A stretch of 51,415 bases of DNA from Natrinema gari JCM 14663 (GTDB lineage Archaea; Halobacteriota; Halobacteria; Halobacteriales; Natrialbaceae): contig NZ_AOIJ01000035.1 in assembly GCF_000337175.1 (NCBI RefSeq), positions 1 to 51,415 of the forward strand, written 5' to 3'. The position numbers and the translations under genes are program-made. The notes under the pieces were generated by a model. That model did not search any database. It was not told the DNA's origin and was given only the letters and a program-made list of their open reading frames with translations. This document shows positions 10,439-20,222 of the stretch, piece by piece (the first letter of the stretch is position 1; each line of letters begins with the position of its first letter).

Positions 10439-11122
10439 TCAGAAGACGCCGAACACGTCGAGCTCGACGACCGCGAGATAGAGCTGCCCGACTCCGGCGA
10501 CGATCATCACGACTCCCGCAACGCGTTTTACGAGTCCAGTATAGGCCGCGAGTCGACCGGCGCTCGCGACGAGTCCCATCCCCGTCGCAACGGTCAACGA
10601 AACCATGAGGGCCACGAAACTACCCACGTACGTTCCGAGGAGAATCGCCGCCTCGGTCGTCGGCAGCGACAGTGACCGGGTGACCACGCCGATGAATATC
10701 GGCGCGACACAGCCTGCCGCCGCCAGCGCGTAGCCGACCCCGAAGATCGCGAACCCGAGCACGCTCGAGCGTCGCTTGGGGAGCGTGATCGACAGCGTCG
10801 GCGCTCGTTCGAAGACGACCAACAGACCGAACGCGATCAGGACGACTCCGGCGACGACTTCGAACCACTTGACCGTCGACAGCGTCGCGTGACCGACCCA
10901 GAACGTCGCCCCGAGCAGGGCGCTGAACGTGACGAGGACCCCGAGCCCGGCGAGTAGCCCCCGACCCAAGGCACCGCCGAGGGACGCGCGCTCGCCGTCG
11001 GTCTGACTGACGTAAAAGCCGACATAGCCCGGCAGAAGCGGGAACGAACACGGAGAGAAGAAGGTCCCGACCCCGGATATCAGCCCGAACGTGAGGGTCA
11101 TGACGAGCGTCGAGTCGACCAT
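10439..11122 (-). CDS. ccdA: CcdA/DsbD-type thiol-disulfide transmembrane protein
   Basis: 227 residues with about six hydrophobic membrane segments. It carries the two CcdA cysteines: Cys25 in FFSPCSFPLLPGY and Cys138 in AAAGCVAPIF. The family carries reducing power from cytoplasmic thioredoxin to outside thioredoxin-like proteins. It is the last gene of a three-gene operon; its ATG follows the TlpA stop by one base. The TlpA-like protein just before it is the likely electron acceptor. Confidence 0.9.
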   Translation of the reverse strand: MVDSTLVMTLTFGLISGVGTFFSPCSFPLLPGYVGFYVSQTDGERASLGGALGRGLLAGLGVLVTFSALLGATFWVGHATLSTVKWFEVVAGVVLIAFGLLVVFERAPTLSITLPKRRSSVLGFAIFGVGYALAAAGCVAPIFIGVVTRSLSLPTTEAAILLGTYVGSFVALMVSLTVATGMGLVASAGRLAAYTGLVKRVAGVVMIVAGVGQLYLAVVELDVFGVF

Positions 11123-11123
11123 C

Positions 11124-11714
11124 CTATTCGGCCTCGTTCGCTGATTCGCTCGCCTCGAGTGCTCGTTCGATACCGGCGACGAGTTCGTCCGCAGTCTTGA
11201 TCCCGGTTTCGGACCATCGAACTGTCCCCGTCGCGTCGATCGACACGGCGGACGGGTAGGGCGTTCCCCAGTATCGGGACGTGAGTTCCGCGGTCGGGTC
11301 GAGACCGATCGTCCAGTTGCCGTCGTGTTTCACCCACCAGTCCCTGAGTTCGGCGTCGCTGATCGACTCGGTCGTTACGGACAGGAAGAGGACCTCGTCG
11401 CTGACGCGCTCGTGTGCCGTCGCGAGCGCGTCCATCTGTTTGATACAGGGCGAACACCAGGTCGCAAAGAAGTCGATGAACGTCGGTCGATCCGGGGTCG
11501 GAACGCGGACTGTGCCGGCCTCGCTACCCGGGGCGTTGACGGTCTCGATCTCGTAGGGGTCGTGTTGTTTCCCCACGATACCGGACGAGTCGCCGCCATC
11601 GTCCTCCTGCTCGGTGACGGTGCCCGGAGACGGGACACCGAACGCAGCGACCGCACCGCCGCCGGCAATCACGCCCGCACTGCCGAGTCCAGCGAGGAGG
11701 TCGCGGCGACGCAT
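11124..11714 (-). CDS. Tat-exported TlpA-like thioredoxin
   Basis: 196 residues. The N-terminus MRRRDLLAGLGSAGV... is a twin-arginine signal. The thioredoxin-like domain contains FFATWCSPC with redox cysteines Cys87 and Cys90, and a cis-Pro region WGTPYPSAVSID. It should act on the outer face of the membrane, reducing Cys pairs in partner proteins. It sits between the SCO1-like gene (2-base gap) and ccdA (1-base gap), a complete export-side thiol-reduction module, most likely for copper-site assembly in SCO1 or a cytochrome oxidase. Confidence 0.92.
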   Translation of the reverse strand: MRRRDLLAGLGSAGVIAGGGAVAAFGVPSPGTVTEQEDDGGDSSGIVGKQHDPYEIETVNAPGSEAGTVRVPTPDRPTFIDFFATWCSPCIKQMDALATAHERVSDEVLFLSVTTESISDAELRDWWVKHDGNWTIGLDPTAELTSRYWGTPYPSAVSIDATGTVRWSETGIKTADELVAGIERALEASESANEAE

Positions 11715-11716
11715 CG

Positions 11717-12445
11717 CTACTCGTCCACCCCCACGACCGTTCTCGTGTCGTCGACCATCACCTGCGTGTTGACCGCGTCGCGCTGGGTCGCCGCTTTCGG
11801 ATACGCCCGCTCGACGATGCCGCGCTCGTTGACGAGTTGGACGAGCGCCGAGTGCGTGAACGTGTACGCATTGCCGGCGTCCGCTGACTCGTTGTCCGAT
11901 GTGGCGGTCGATTCACCGTCGTCTCGTCTGAGCGGCAGCCCGAACGTCTCCTGGAGCATTGTCTTGGCCGTCTCGTTGTCTTCCGGGCGAAGGAAGTGCC
12001 AGTGCCCCGCATCGACATCGATGCCCATTTGTTCGCCGTGCGTGCGAAGGGCGTCGGCCGTATCGCGATCGGGATCGAACGTAAACGCGAGCAACGCGAG
12101 ATCGTCCTCGTACCCGCTCTCGAGGGCGTCCGCCTGTATTCGATGGAGATGCTGGAGCAGTTGCTGGCACATCCCGTCGGGACAGGACGCATAGAAGTAC
12201 GTGATGACGAACGGGCGTTCGTCGATGACGTCCTCGAGCGAGATCGTCTTGTCGGCGAGCGGGTCCCGAATGGAAAACTCCGGAAAGTCGTCGCCGTGAA
12301 CCGGATACGAGGGGTCCCCGCGTTGCTGTTCTGGCGGATCGAGCACGGTATCGCTTGTTCCGCCACCGAGCGTGTCACCAAGACAACCGGCAACGCTTGC
12401 GAGTCCCGCGATTCCGACCGTGCCGAGATATGTCCGCCGGTCCAT
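11717..12445 (-). CDS. SCO1/SenC-family copper chaperone lipoprotein
   Basis: 242 residues. The signal MDRRTYLGTVGIAGLASVAGC has twin Arg and a lipobox ending at Cys21. The thioredoxin-like SCO fold shows the copper site as Cys88-PDGM-Cys93 and the distal His198 in YTFTHSALVQLV. The Cys pair is CxxxxC, one residue longer than the classic CxxxC. The family delivers copper to the CuA site of cytochrome oxidases or acts as a thiol reductase. The frame extends far upstream, but the ATG at 12445 gives the lipoprotein signal. It is the first gene of the operon with tlpA-like and ccdA genes. Confidence 0.9.
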   Translation of the reverse strand: MDRRTYLGTVGIAGLASVAGCLGDTLGGGTSDTVLDPPEQQRGDPSYPVHGDDFPEFSIRDPLADKTISLEDVIDERPFVITYFYASCPDGMCQQLLQHLHRIQADALESGYEDDLALLAFTFDPDRDTADALRTHGEQMGIDVDAGHWHFLRPEDNETAKTMLQETFGLPLRRDDGESTATSDNESADAGNAYTFTHSALVQLVNERGIVERAYPKAATQRDAVNTQVMVDDTRTVVGVDE

Positions 12446-12616
12446 GTCTGACTCGAGGGAACGACCGATGAAAGGTTCATTGGTTCGGTTCACGAAGATC
12501 GAACGTTTATCGAGGGGGAGTGCGAGCGGCGTGGGGTGGCTGTCGGCGGTCGGAGCACTGCACCCCTCGTGGAGCGTTCGATCGGCGAGGGTGTTTGATC
12601 GGCGAACCAACAGGCG

Positions 12617-12623
12617 TTTTATC
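12617..12623 (+). promoter_or_regulatory. TATA-like box for the P19/Tp34-like lipoprotein gene
   Basis: TTTTATC is centred 26 bases before the ATG at 12646, implying a leaderless transcript. It lies in the 200-base divergent region shared with the SCO1-like gene. Confidence 0.6.
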
Positions 12624-12645
12624 GCCGGCGGTGAAGGGCCGCCCA

Positions 12646-13761
12646 ATGAATCGCCGGGGCTTTCTCCGCAGAACAGCGACGATCGGAGCCGTCGGAACCG
12701 TCGGAACCGCCGGCTGTCTCGAGGGACTGGGGTTCGAAGAAGAATCCGCCTGGGCGAACCCGCCGCTCGTCGAAAACCGCCCCGACGCCGTCTACCTTCC
12801 ATCCTCGCGCGAGGAGATGCGGACCTACGGGATGGCGACCGACGGCGACTACGCCGTTGCACTCTCCTATACCTTTCCACACCGGTTCTGGACCGTCGAG
12901 GCAACCAGCGACGGGAAGCAACGCGTCGAGGTCGCGACCGACGATACGCACCATCTCATGACCACCCTCTGGGATCGCGAAACGCGGACCGTCCTGCCGG
13001 TGGATATGCGACTCGAGCTCCTGCAGGACGGGTCGCCGGTCGACGCGGGCATCTCGTCGCCGTGGCCGATGCTCTCCCAGCGGATGGGCTTTCACTACGG
13101 CGACAACGTCGGATTGCCCGGCGAAGGCGAGTATACGGCCCGCATCCGGACCAGTCCCGTCACGCTCGATCGAACCGGCGCGTTCGAGGGACGGCTGGAC
13201 ACCGCGGCCTCGTTCGAGATCGACTTCGAGTACGCCCGCTCCGATATCAACGAGCTCTCGTTCGAGACGCTCGACGAGAGCAAGTGGGGCAACCGTGATG
13301 CCTTGTCGCTGATGGACCACGGCGACGGCAGCGGTTCCCACGGCGGTGATCTCGGCCCGCCGCCGACGGGACAGGAGCCGCGGATCGCGGACATCCCCGG
13401 CGACTCGCTTGGGACCAAACGCAGCGGCGACGCGGCGATCACCGCGTTCGTGACCGACGCCAACCGGTTCACCGACGACGGCTCGTACCTTGCGGTCTGT
13501 CCGAGAACGCCGTACAACGGCATTATCCTCCCACTTACCTCGTTGTCCGTTGCCGTCGAACGCGACGGTGAGATCGTCCGTGAGGCGAGGCTCGTGGAAA
13601 CGCTCGACGGCGAGATCGGCCACCATTACGGCCTCGAACTCGACGCGCTCGTGGCGGGCGATCGGGTGACGGTTACCGTCGATTCGCCACCACAGGTATC
13701 CCGTCACGACGGCTACGAGACGGCGTTTTTCGAGTTCAACGAGATCACGTACACGATCTAA
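12646..13761 (+). CDS. Tat lipoprotein with two P19/Tp34-like metal-binding domains
   Basis: 371 residues. MNRRGFLRRTATIG... ends in a lipobox with Cys24. The middle (about 60-210) resembles periplasmic Fe2+/Cu-binding P19/Tp34 proteins: PHRFW, then MGFHYGDNVGLPGEGEYT (His150) and a closing SFEIDFEY strand. The C-terminal part (about 250-371) repeats a shorter HHYG element (His326/His327) and may be a second related domain. Haloarchaeal proteins of this kind are, from memory, filed as DUF7350. It diverges from the SCO1-TlpA-CcdA operon. In bacteria P19 is linked with an FTR1 permease and TlpA-type thioredoxins, suggesting metal uptake; no permease is visible here. Confidence 0.72.
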   Translation: MNRRGFLRRTATIGAVGTVGTAGCLEGLGFEEESAWANPPLVENRPDAVYLPSSREEMRTYGMATDGDYAVALSYTFPHRFWTVEATSDGKQRVEVATDDTHHLMTTLWDRETRTVLPVDMRLELLQDGSPVDAGISSPWPMLSQRMGFHYGDNVGLPGEGEYTARIRTSPVTLDRTGAFEGRLDTAASFEIDFEYARSDINELSFETLDESKWGNRDALSLMDHGDGSGSHGGDLGPPPTGQEPRIADIPGDSLGTKRSGDAAITAFVTDANRFTDDGSYLAVCPRTPYNGIILPLTSLSVAVERDGEIVREARLVETLDGEIGHHYGLELDALVAGDRVTVTVDSPPQVSRHDGYETAFFEFNEITYTI

Positions 13762-13826: not shown

Positions 13827-14103
13827 AAGAGTGAGTGCGCGCCGGCGTGTTCGATGGGGACACTCGAGCGGCGGGAAGTGGAGCCCGATTGCCGATTTCG
13901 GACCGGAAAAACGGCTTTCGTGGCGGAAACAGTCCCTCCAATCGAGTCGAACCGACGGACGGGCGACCGATGGAACCGTCGCATCAGCCGCGGTCGTTTC
14001 GCGACGTAAATCGTCTCCTACGGCGATCGACCGGCCGGACGGGAGCGACAGCGGTCGCGTACGGCTCCGATAACTAACGGGGAGCGCCGAATACGCTCGA
14101 GCG

Positions 14104-14523: not shown

Positions 14524-14544
14524 CACACCGGGTTTCCGGTGAAA
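14524..14544 (+). repeat. Origin recognition box 1
   Basis: CACACCGGGTTTCCGGTGAAA, one difference from the consensus, right-facing, outermost box of the left cluster. Confidence 0.9.
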
Positions 14545-14590
14545 TCCGATCAGTCACCGGAGACACGAGGCTGGGGCCGGGACGGGGGCA

Positions 14591-14611
14591 CACACCGTGT
14601 TTCCGGTGAAC
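14591..14611 (+). repeat. Origin recognition box 2
   Basis: CACACCGTGTTTCCGGTGAA then C, matching the consensus except the last base, right-facing. Confidence 0.9.
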
Positions 14612-14649
14612 AGCCTTCGGCGGACTCCGATTGAAGTCCGGGGAGTCGG

Positions 14650-14670
14650 CACACCGGATTTCCGGTGAAT
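14650..14670 (+). repeat. Origin recognition box 3
   Basis: CACACCGGATTTCCGGTGAA then T, slightly diverged in the centre, right-facing. Confidence 0.88.
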
Positions 14671-14741
14671 TTACCGACCGCGGCGTCCATGGAATATCGG
14701 GAACACCCGGGCGGATCAAAGTGGTGTGAACTGGTCTCACC

Positions 14742-14762
14742 CACACCGGGTTTCCGGTGAAA
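14742..14762 (+). repeat. Origin recognition box 4
   Basis: CACACCGGGTTTCCGGTGAAA, identical to box 1, right-facing. Confidence 0.9.
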
Positions 14763-15091
14763 CGACATCGAGTTGCGGACCGGTGTCGAACGGGCGGAGA
14801 ACTCGAGACTCCCGACCGTAGCTGACTTAGACTGACCGATTCAGGGCTCCAACGGTGCTGCTTAGACCGATTCGGGCTGTACTCGCGGGTGGATTGGCGG
14901 TCGGCTCCGCGGGCGGTCGGCTCCGCGATTAGAGAACGAACAGAGGCGGACTCGAGGCGACATCGCGTGACAACGATAGCGTGGCAAAGCGACGGAAGGC
15001 GACGACAAACGAGATGCGACCGCCGACTGAACTCGAGTCCGTACTCGGCTCTGTCCACTGGTCCGAGCGGCCGCCGCCGCTCGTTCGGACA

Positions 15092-15112
15092 CACACCGTG
15101 TTTCCGGTGAAA
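15092..15112 (+). repeat. Origin recognition box 5
   Basis: CACACCGTGTTTCCGGTGAAA, the consensus, right-facing; the box nearest the AT-rich element on the left, 330 bases from box 4. Confidence 0.92.
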
Positions 15113-15185
15113 GGACTCGGAAAGGCCGTTCGATCACGCTGTTTTGCGCTGTGCCGATTGTACCCTAAGCCGACCACGGATTGCC

Positions 15186-15235
15186 AAACTATTTCGAGTC
15201 TATAGAAATATATAAACAGTATCTATGAGAAAAGT
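15186..15235. other. AT-rich DNA unwinding element
   Basis: About 50 bases dominated by A and T, including TATAGAAATATATAAACAG, the strongest AT run near the boxes, lying between the right-facing and left-facing ORBs. This is the expected site of initial strand opening. Confidence 0.82.
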
Positions 15236-15429
15236 TCGCCAAGTGAATCGGACTTCTCTTCTCCAGTGATCGGAGAAGGCGAGCGATGAGATATCCCGCT
15301 CCCGTCACTGGTTTCGGTCGTTATCGCCCGTCGATACCAGTCGTTTCTGCATGGACAGCCACGGATAACGGAGTCCCGGCATGTCGGAACCTCCGTTTCA
15401 ACTGGACCCGTGTTACGCCGCTCTCCCCC

Positions 15430-15450
15430 TTTCACCGGAAACACGGTGTG
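15430..15450 (-). repeat. Origin recognition box 6
   Basis: TTTCACCGGAAACACGGTGTG on the plus strand, the exact complement of box 5, left-facing toward the AT-rich element. Confidence 0.92.
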
Positions 15451-15624
15451 TGTTCGCAGCCGATCGTGTACGGCTCACTTTGCCGAACGAAACAGTTCCG
15501 GACCGGCACGTCGAATCCGAATCCGCCACACAACCGGTCCACAGCCGCTACATGACCGGTCTGCAGGGTTGTGTCACCGCGTTCAGCTCGCCGCTCGAGT
15601 CGCCGGTGGCAAACGGAAGGGCTA

Positions 15625-15645
15625 TTTCACCGGAAACACGGTGTT
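15625..15645 (-). repeat. Origin recognition box 7, in the orc1 promoter
   Basis: TTTCACCGGAAACACGGTGTT on the plus strand, ending 5 bases before the orc1 ATG and abutting a TATA-like CTATTT at 15622-15627. Orc1 binding here could both join origin assembly and repress its own gene. Confidence 0.9.
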
Positions 15646-16856: not shown

Positions 16857-16921
16857 CCGTCCGCCACCGCCGACGCGGCCCGGGAGATCAAGGAACATGC
16901 GCCAGTCGCAATGGGCCGACA

Positions 16922-16942
16922 TTTCACCGGAAACCCGGTGTC
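16922..16942 (-). repeat. Outlying origin recognition box 8
   Basis: TTTCACCGGAAACCCGGTGTC on the plus strand, left-facing, 65 bases after the orc1 stop and about 1.3 kb from box 7. It matches the G-variant boxes 1 and 4 except at the last base. It lies in the 210-base gap between convergent orc1 and the M24 peptidase gene. Confidence 0.88.
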
Positions 16943-17066
16943 CCCGTTCGACGCGGTCGAGCCATCGACGTGATCCGGACGCAACTCATACGGACCGCTG
17001 TCAGTCAGTGCCGCGAACCCACGGCCCGGCTGTGGGGTTGTCGGGAAATCGGGACCGCAGACCGAA

Positions 17067-18215: not shown

Positions 18216-18518
18216 GGGCGGGACTTCGCTCGAGTGAGAAATCAACGTTTGGTTCTGGTGACATCGGCCGCGGGGTGTCGTCGGCTCCCGACTGCCACCG
18301 AGCACCGGTCGCGTCGCCAGCTGGGTGTGTCGCTCGCGTCTCGTTTCCAGCGCCGCGGCACACGCCTCGCGTCCCGGCGCGTCCGAGACCGATCCCGAGC
18401 GGTGACCCTCCCGGTGGTCGAACAGTCGGGACGCCGCGAGTACTAGCGGGAACGTATTAACCCCCTGGCGATCGCAAGCGGCGAAGCAACCCGTCGTGAT
18501 GCTGTGGTCTTTCAGCGA

Positions 18519-20222
18519 ATGCGAGTTACCGAGCGGTTGTCGTCGAGGACTGTACGAAATCGACAGCGACGGGCCGACGGCCGCGGCCGAACGGACGAGG
18601 AGTCCGCGTCCGACGGGCCCAGCTGTCCCGGTTCGCTGATCGTTGTTTCGAACCGGCAACCGTATCGTCACGAGTACCGAGACGAGGACGCCACCGCACC
18701 GTCGGACGACGACGCTACGAGCCCCGACGGAACGGGGCACCCACGGACGGGGACGGACGGTGATGGCCGTTCCACAGCCGGGACGAGACCGATCACGGTC
18801 GACGAGCCGACCGGCGGTCTGACCGCCGGTCTCGATCCCGTTATGCAACGAACCGACGGGACCTGGATCGCCTGGGGCGACGGCGACGCGGACTTCGATG
18901 TGACCGACGAGCGGAACTGCGTGGCCGTCCCGCCGGATGAGGGAGCCTATACGCTCCGTCGACTGGATCTCTCGGACGACGCCGTCGACGCCTACTACTA
19001 CGGGTTCAGCAACCGCGTGCTCTGGCCGCTCTGTCACGGCTTTCCCGACCTGATCGAGGACCGGCCGACCGACTTCGACTGGTACCGGACAGTCAACGAG
19101 CGCTTCGCCGAGGCGGTGGCCGACCATGCGACAGGCGAGTCCGTCGTCTGGATACAGGACTACCACCTCGCGCTCGCGCCGCGGATGATTCGGGACTCGG
19201 TGCCCGCCGGGGCGACCGTCGCGCACTTCTGGCACATCCCGTGGCCGTCGCCGGCGACGTTCCGGCAGTGCCCCGCCGCCGGCCGCGTTCTCGAGGGATT
19301 ACTGGGCAACGACCTGATCGGCTTCCACGTCGATCGGTACGCCGAGCAGTTCCTGCACTGCATCGATCGCTGCCTCCCGACCGCAATCGTCGACCACTCC
19401 CATGGAACGGTTCGCTACGATGGGCACACGACTCGCGTCGTGGCGACGCCGATGGGCGTCGACGCCGACGCCTACGAGCGGGACGCCCGGGCGGGCGATC
19501 CCGACCGGCTTTCGGACCTGTTCGATGAGTACGGGATTCCCCAGGGGACGACGATCGGGCTGGGGTTGGATCGGCTCGACTACACGAAAGGCATCCCCGA
19601 ACGGTTGGCGGCCCTCGAGCGGCTCCTCGAGCGGAATCCCGACTGGTGCGGCGCGTTCACCTTCATCCAGAAGGCGACACCCTCCCGGACCGACATCGAG
19701 ACCTACGAGCGATACGGCGAACTCGTCCGCAGCGAGGTCCGGCGGATCAACCGCCGCTTCGAAACCGACGACTGGCAACCGATCGTCTACACCGAGGACA
19801 TGCTGTCCCAGGCGGACATCTGTGCGCTCTACCGCCGCGCGGACGTGATGGTGATCAGTCCGCTGATCGACGGCATGAACCTCGTCGCACAGGAGTTCGT
19901 CGCCGCGAGCGTCGACGGCGACGATGCGCTGGTGCTGAGCGACCGGACCGGGGCACACGAACGCCTCGGGTCGCACGCGCTGACGATCGACCCGACCGAT
20001 ACCGACGGGTTCGCGGCGCAACTCGAGCACGCGCTCTCGATGTCGCCGTACGAACGGCGACGACGGATGAACACGCTCCGCCAGCGCGTGTTCGACGACG
20101 ACCTCGAGTCGTGGATGGCGACTCAGTTCGACTGGATCCGGCGGGTACACGGCGATCGTGAGCGCAGCGACACGACCACTGACACCGACTCCGATTCCCG
20201 GGAACGGACACCGCCAGTGTAG
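18519..20222 (+). CDS. otsA: Trehalose-6-phosphate synthase
   Basis: 567 residues, a GT20 glycosyltransferase joining UDP-glucose (or another NDP-glucose) to glucose-6-phosphate. Motifs seen: QDYHLALAPRMIR, FWHIPWPSP, GFHVDRYAEQFL, GLDRLDYTKGIPER (from about 350) and ISPLIDGMNLVAQEFVAA. Compared with bacterial OtsA (about 470 residues) it has a long polar N-terminal extension and an Asp/Thr/Gly-rich insert at about 60-95 after the SNRQPY motif. ATG 18519 was chosen; a GTG five codons upstream (18504) is also in frame. Two bases separate it from otsB. It makes the precursor of trehalose, an osmolyte in some haloarchaea. Confidence 0.93.
   Translation: MRVTERLSSRTVRNRQRRADGRGRTDEESASDGPSCPGSLIVVSNRQPYRHEYRDEDATAPSDDDATSPDGTGHPRTGTDGDGRSTAGTRPITVDEPTGGLTAGLDPVMQRTDGTWIAWGDGDADFDVTDERNCVAVPPDEGAYTLRRLDLSDDAVDAYYYGFSNRVLWPLCHGFPDLIEDRPTDFDWYRTVNERFAEAVADHATGESVVWIQDYHLALAPRMIRDSVPAGATVAHFWHIPWPSPATFRQCPAAGRVLEGLLGNDLIGFHVDRYAEQFLHCIDRCLPTAIVDHSHGTVRYDGHTTRVVATPMGVDADAYERDARAGDPDRLSDLFDEYGIPQGTTIGLGLDRLDYTKGIPERLAALERLLERNPDWCGAFTFIQKATPSRTDIETYERYGELVRSEVRRINRRFETDDWQPIVYTEDMLSQADICALYRRADVMVISPLIDGMNLVAQEFVAASVDGDDALVLSDRTGAHERLGSHALTIDPTDTDGFAAQLEHALSMSPYERRRRMNTLRQRVFDDDLESWMATQFDWIRRVHGDRERSDTTTDTDSDSRERTPPV

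Follow-up and report, generated by a model that had tools for sequence, protein, structure and literature searches.

The intergenic DNA beside an orc1 gene of Natrinema gari JCM 14663 is, with a probability of about 0.85, a bona fide orc1/cdc6-adjacent replication origin of a family that is mostly borne by megaplasmids or chromids and that now resides in the Natrinema chromosome. The window, the whole stretch of DNA that was analysed (51,415 bp), corresponds to positions 1–51415 of the 88,004-bp contig C35 (NZ_AOIJ01000035.1) of a genome of 4.02 Mb in 88 contigs. The features of the locus and its flanks are as follows, with scores of family ORBs taken from a matrix of relatives.

10439–13761, both strands: upstream block of genes for CcdA (−), TlpA (−), SCO (−) and a TAT-signal protein (+), syntenic with plasmid pHTUR04
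14525–14543, plus strand: family ORB 1, right-facing, exact motif, 38.0 bits
14592–14610, plus strand: family ORB 2, exact motif, 35.6 bits
14651–14669, plus strand: family ORB 3, exact motif, 31.1 bits
14743–14761, plus strand: family ORB 4, exact motif, 40.2 bits
15093–15111, plus strand: family ORB 5, exact motif, 41.5 bits
15187–15236, no strand: AT-rich element, candidate duplex-unwinding element, 76% AT
15209–15247, plus strand: conserved block TATATAA...AGTYCRYYAAGTGAA, within or beside the AT-rich element, kept in most orthologous loci
about 15365–15383, plus strand: decayed right-facing family ORB, aligned to orthologues, about 10 of 19 positions kept
15390–15407, minus strand: oriC1-type (Cdc6A-type) ORB core GTCCAGTTGAAACGGAGG, between the inner boxes, 16.5 bits
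15431–15449, minus strand: family ORB 6, the inner left-facing box, exact motif, 42.0 bits, kept in orthologues
15610–15628, plus strand: putative orc1 core promoter, BRE CAAACGGAA and TATA-like CTATTTC, from aligned Natrinema loci
15626–15644, minus strand: family ORB 7, between the TATA-like box and the orc1 start codon, exact motif, 38.0 bits
15651–16856, plus strand: orc1/cdc6 initiator gene, 401 aa, AAA+ and winged helix (TIGR02928, 438 bits)
16923–16941, minus strand: family ORB 8, downstream of orc1, exact motif, 38.9 bits
17067–18215, minus strand: M24/aminopeptidase P family gene, the first to the right of the origin block, syntenic with pHTUR04
18504–20222, plus strand: trehalose-6-phosphate synthase gene, syntenic with pHTUR04

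The family ORB has a 19-bp core, which reads ACACCGKRTTTCCGGTGAA in the right-facing boxes. The window holds eight exact copies, compared with 0.00 expected by chance (100 shuffles), and none occurs elsewhere in the 4.02-Mb genome. With a position matrix built from 274 sites of relatives, the window being left out, the eight boxes score 31–42 bits and nothing else in the window exceeds 2 bits. The initial annotation had described five right-facing and two left-facing boxes, a gap of about 330 bases between boxes 4 and 5, and a 50-base AT-rich element with orc1 beside it, and each of these is found in place, with the gap measuring 331 bp and the next best upstream 50-mer reaching 50% AT. Its count of the arms as 5 to 2 is exact for the upstream boxes but misses the eighth, which lies 66 bp past the orc1 stop codon and makes the arms 5:3; the word "complete" was thus an overstatement, because the set described omits the box downstream of orc1.

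The tail of the family ORB is GGTGT with no run of G after it, and in the 274-site matrix the tail prefers a GT repeat (GTGTGTG). A G-string has been used as a criterion for ORBs in published haloarchaeal surveys (PMC3528665). The locus is therefore a variant, rather than a typical member, of the haloarchaeal orc/cdc6-adjacent origins, and ORBs without the halophile G-string are new, in that they are not described in the cited haloarchaeal-origin literature.

The product of orc1 matches the structures of Sso Cdc6-1 (2qby_A, E = 2e-63) and the A. pernix initiator (2v1u_A, E = 1.7e-59), and is 100% identical to Orc1 of Natrinema pallidum over 401 residues. Of the features that Wu et al. (2012) used to define such origins, the locus has an adjacent orc1/cdc6 gene encoding AAA+ and winged-helix domains in more than 300 aa (401 aa here), inverted ORBs in intergenic DNA (five right-facing and two left-facing upstream, one downstream), and an AT-rich candidate unwinding element between the arms. 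Box 8, an ORB in the intergenic region downstream of the initiator gene, is in addition a feature of the oriC2 type.

The window origin is not oriC1, since its initiator is not the universal Cdc6A, which is encoded on contig C52 together with G-string boxes such as TTCCACCTGAAACGAAGGGGTGGGGGG. Cdc6A was found in 60 of the 61 family genomes searched, and scores 361 bits against Sso Cdc6-1, compared with 218 bits for the window Orc1; the two initiators are about 45% identical over their best stretch. The locus resembles oriC1-cdc6A in having inverted ORBs around an AT-rich element that adjoin an initiator gene, and differs from it in the initiator, in the contig and in its ORB. The TTCCANNTGAAACGAAGGGG-type ORBs with poly-G that serve as the criterion for oriC1 were not found at the locus, where one embedded core only is of that type.

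A layout of this type recurs in 35 orthologous loci besides the window, at 77–100% identity. Upstream of orc1, these loci have between one and seven right-facing boxes, an AT-rich stretch (placed equivalently in most of them) and an inner left-facing box, and a further left-facing box precedes the start codon at −25 to −37; downstream of orc1, most carry one to nine boxes. Many also have an extra right-facing box intact, some 65 bp ahead of the inner left-facing one; it is this extra box that is decayed in the clade of the window. In most orthologous loci, a block TATATAA...AGTCCATTAAGT is found next to the AT-rich element, with a spacing that hardly varies, and the TATATAA block occurs at a single place in the 4-Mb genome; it may be either a promoter of an origin transcript or an initiation element. 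No family ORBs were found at ten scanned relatives of about 55% identity, one of which, examined more closely, has a repeat of another kind that includes a run of G (TTCACTCTGGACGAGGGGTGT). The restriction of family ORBs to orthologues points to co-specificity of initiator and ORB, as expected under co-evolution.

Several further observations stand apart. ORB-like matches near −2000 to −4400 in relatives were judged on inspection to be codons (TVLPV) within the TAT-signal gene and were discarded. The plasmid origin of Halorientalis marina has nine family ORBs downstream of orc1, 228–462 bases past the orc1 match; seven recur with a period of exactly 39 bp, an arrangement with the look of a titration array. 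Plasmids of Salinibaculum litoreum and Halostella pelagica (100,260 and 100,265 bp) share both their orc1 and their ORB set, through either recent transfer or a mix-up of records.

In the window, the BRE/TATA-like stretch in front of orc1 reads CAAACGGAAGGGCTATTT; Natronorubrum and Haloterrigena have CCAAACAGTAAAG at the same place, and in most genera the last box is located directly between the BRE/TATA-like sequence and the start codon. The position of box 7 within the putative orc1 promoter is new. With the boxes, their restriction to the locus and the conservation of the layout established here, and weak autonomous replication known from published J7 data (PMC5350488), we propose that the dedicated Orc1 would bind the family ORBs (TTTCACCGGAAACNCGGTGT) that flank the AT-rich element, unwind that element and load MCM. 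Orc1 bound to box 7 would cover the core promoter and should block transcription of its own gene, while box 8 would help to titrate Orc1. On this model, the origin would also be used in the living chromosome.

The arrangement resembles that of oriC2-cdc6E of Haloarcula hispanica (PMC3936714), with a dedicated cdc6, ORBs upstream, a separate ORB set downstream and plasmid-like behaviour. In H. hispanica, downstream ORBs lower origin activity, and those of oriC2 have been proposed to titrate Cdc6E (PMC3936714). The two loci differ in that oriC2-cdc6E has 11 downstream ORBs compared with one in the window, and in that its ORBs were selected for a G-string (PMC3936714), which the window ORBs lack.

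The locus has already been predicted as an origin and tested as an autonomously replicating sequence in the sister strain Natrinema sp. J7. Wang et al. (2017, PMC5350488) predicted oriC5 at 1277983–1279633 and oriC6 at 1280840–1281049 of the J7 chromosome. The gap between the two is 1206 bp, the length of the window orc1; oriC6 is 210 bp, the length of window positions 16857–17066; and the reverse primer of ARS-3 matches positions 17044–17066 with one mismatch. J7 and the window thus share the locus, an orc1 of 1206 bp, a downstream intergenic region of 210 bp and the reverse primer site. The best match of the ARS-3 forward primer, at 13910, has six mismatches, indicating that J7 and the window strain are related but not identical. 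The J7 study (PMC5350488) predicted five upstream ORBs and one downstream, compared with seven and one in the window, and makes no mention of the promoter box, the oriC1-type core or plasmid relatives. The construct pFJ3, carrying ARS-3, replicated independently of the J7 chromosome (PMC5350488). In a host carrying a resident copy, the J7 orthologous locus therefore acts as an origin, though its autonomous activity is weak, and the replication origin with its own orc1 recognised in the initial annotation is upheld both by this autonomous replication and by the layout kept in the 35 other loci.

Orthologues outside Natrinema are mostly on plasmids or secondary replicons, and those in Natrinema are chromosomal. 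Among the best 39 matches in PLSDB, orthologues 73–92% identical are on plasmid records, including the 172-kb pHTUR04 of Haloterrigena, and the 4.0-Mb contig of N. ejinorense and the 3.0-Mb contig of Haloterrigena sp. H1 carry the orthologue together with the gene for Cdc6A. A tree of Orc1 places the 12 Natrinema-type rows together in a single supported group (99/93); the surrounding rows are plasmid-borne wherever they are so named, possible exceptions being a "chromosome 2" of Halovivax and two large contigs. The initial annotation's "fully interpretable chromosomal origin" accordingly went too far: the origin is not oriC1, its family is mainly plasmid-borne outside Natrinema, and its autonomous activity in J7 is weak.

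Contig C35 is colinear, with gaps, with pHTUR04 over 1.8–38.3 kb, the greater part of the first 38 kb of the window. The order ccdA-tlpA-sco-TAT gene-[origin]-orc1-M24-otsA is common to both. Specifically, pHTUR04 of Haloterrigena turkmenica has an orthologous Orc1 (91%) and the same neighbours (ccdA, tlpA, sco, M24 peptidase, otsA and otsB), and differs in being a 172-kb circular plasmid instead of a chromosome and in having a better preserved oriC1-type core. Genes of core type (shikimate kinase, chorismate mutase, dihydroorotate dehydrogenase and glutamine synthetase) and a second orc1 at 102212–103438 give this plasmid a chromid-like look. In N. ejinorense, the pHTUR04 genes that were found are chromosomal and scattered over several blocks, a dispersal that leaves a recent insertion of a whole plasmid in Natrinema unsupported. 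Capture of the origin into the Natrinema chromosome is the simplest reading; fission in the other genera is possible instead, and would fit the core-type genes of pHTUR04. Elsewhere on contig C35, which has 64% GC overall, the 5 kb at 70001–75000, outside the window, have 41% GC and are possibly a foreign insert.

The chromosomal copy could instead be what is left of a captured megaplasmid, dormant or in decay and silent in normal growth, a reading to which we give appreciable weight, though well short of even odds. The transformation data from J7 bear on it: pFJ3 gave 39 cfu per microgram, compared with about 2000 for the best J7 origins, and was about 50-fold less efficient than pFJ1, pFJ4 and pFJ6 (PMC5350488), a shortfall that could mean a weak origin, a dormant one, or incompatibility with the resident copy. 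Dormancy would also fit the plasmid location of most relatives' copies, the decay of the inner right-facing box in the clade of the window, and the precedent of dormant origins in Haloferax mediterranei (PMC4595724). The GC skew, a check named beforehand, shows no turn at the locus in C35, in pHTUR04 or in half of the 3.99-Mb N. ejinorense contig, and so does not mark it; a silent origin would be compatible with this uninformative skew. Against dormancy, all eight boxes and orc1 are intact, and Orc1 is unchanged from that of N. pallidum. The low transformation could equally stem from incompatibility, which oriC2 of H. hispanica shows in a plasmid-like form (PMC3936714), and pFJ3 may thus not be intrinsically weak.

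An addition to the main reading, tentative and less likely than not, is that Cdc6A too binds the origin, at 15390–15407, coupling it to oriC1 either as a positive co-factor or as a timing or repression signal. Most loci have between the inner boxes a sequence like AACCCCCGTTTCAACTGGAACCCC, which on the other strand is GGGGTTCCAGTTGAAACGGGGGTT; judged by sequence, this conserved element matches the Cdc6A ORB core, and it is not described in the cited haloarchaeal-origin literature. With a matrix made from the oriC1 boxes of 30 relatives and trimmed to a 16-bp core, the only site of at least 12 bits on the 88-kb contig is at 15392 (16.5 bits), and the best site on the 172-kb pHTUR04 (21.9 bits) is at the same place of its origin; in Markov sequence, a match as strong as that comes once per Mb. 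For 19 of 42 loci, the strongest core match anywhere in the locus falls 33–39 bp to the left of the inner ORB, compared with 0 or 1 of 42 for 30 column-shuffled matrices in the same position test; the 42 loci come from three families or more and are related, so that the counts are not independent. The pattern KTCCANNTGAAACGRRGG, written after both kinds of site had been seen, has four matches in the 4-Mb genome, three of them on the cdc6A contig. In addition, cdc6A is much harder to delete than oriC1 and has been proposed as a common factor for several origins (Wu et al., PMC3936714). The element is not merely a decayed family ORB, because the family matrix gives it less than 2 bits, compared with 16.5 for the oriC1-core matrix.

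Other evidence speaks against a role of Cdc6A. The window core has lost most of the G-string and scores less than 4 bits with the full 32-bp matrix, the core is decayed in several Natrinema-type loci (H1, N. hispanicum and N. limicola), and it is absent from most other orc1 loci of this genome. In H. hispanica, moreover, origins depend on the co-located cdc6, the autonomous replication of each requiring its adjacent gene (PMC3936714). The embedded core suggests, short of proof, cross-control by the housekeeping initiator Cdc6A, and is a good lead towards a possible action of Cdc6A at this site.

Cores of the oriC1 type were also seen elsewhere. Isolated ones outside oriC1 are at C52:42, C52:2489 and C52:40470, the last adjoining a tRNA-like stretch, and at 3.28–3.48 Mb in N. 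ejinorense, and they are mostly within about 200 kb of oriC1; in the 2 Mb of N. ejinorense that were sampled, five of eight core matches are at 3.28–3.48 Mb, with oriC1 at 3.47 Mb. Cores near −579 at relatives of about 55% identity were discounted, since their surroundings hardly differ from one such relative to the next, a G-string is absent, and these loci have another ORB type.

That the boxes are sites of an Orc1 acting only as a transcription factor, with no origin, is very improbable: box 7 does lie in the putative orc1 promoter, and some archaeal Orc1 paralogues are regulators (PMC9738581), but the inverted arrays around a conserved AT-rich element, the presence on many plasmids and, if the vector truly replicated from its insert, the J7 result (PMC5350488) all speak against it.

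The locus is of wider interest in several respects. Real haloarchaeal ORBs could escape surveys that demand a G-string. The locus offers a natural example of an origin family that is plasmid-borne in most relatives and main-chromosomal in one genus. It bears on how several origins and replicons are coordinated within an archaeal cell, and on why cdc6A is nearly indispensable when oriC1 is not (PMC3936714). If this plasmid-type origin does carry a conserved Cdc6A site, which is less likely than not, the start of replication on secondary replicons, and on the Natrinema chromosome once the origin had been captured, might be tied to oriC1; the conserved oriC1-type core within this plasmid-type origin provides a concrete cis element to mutate.
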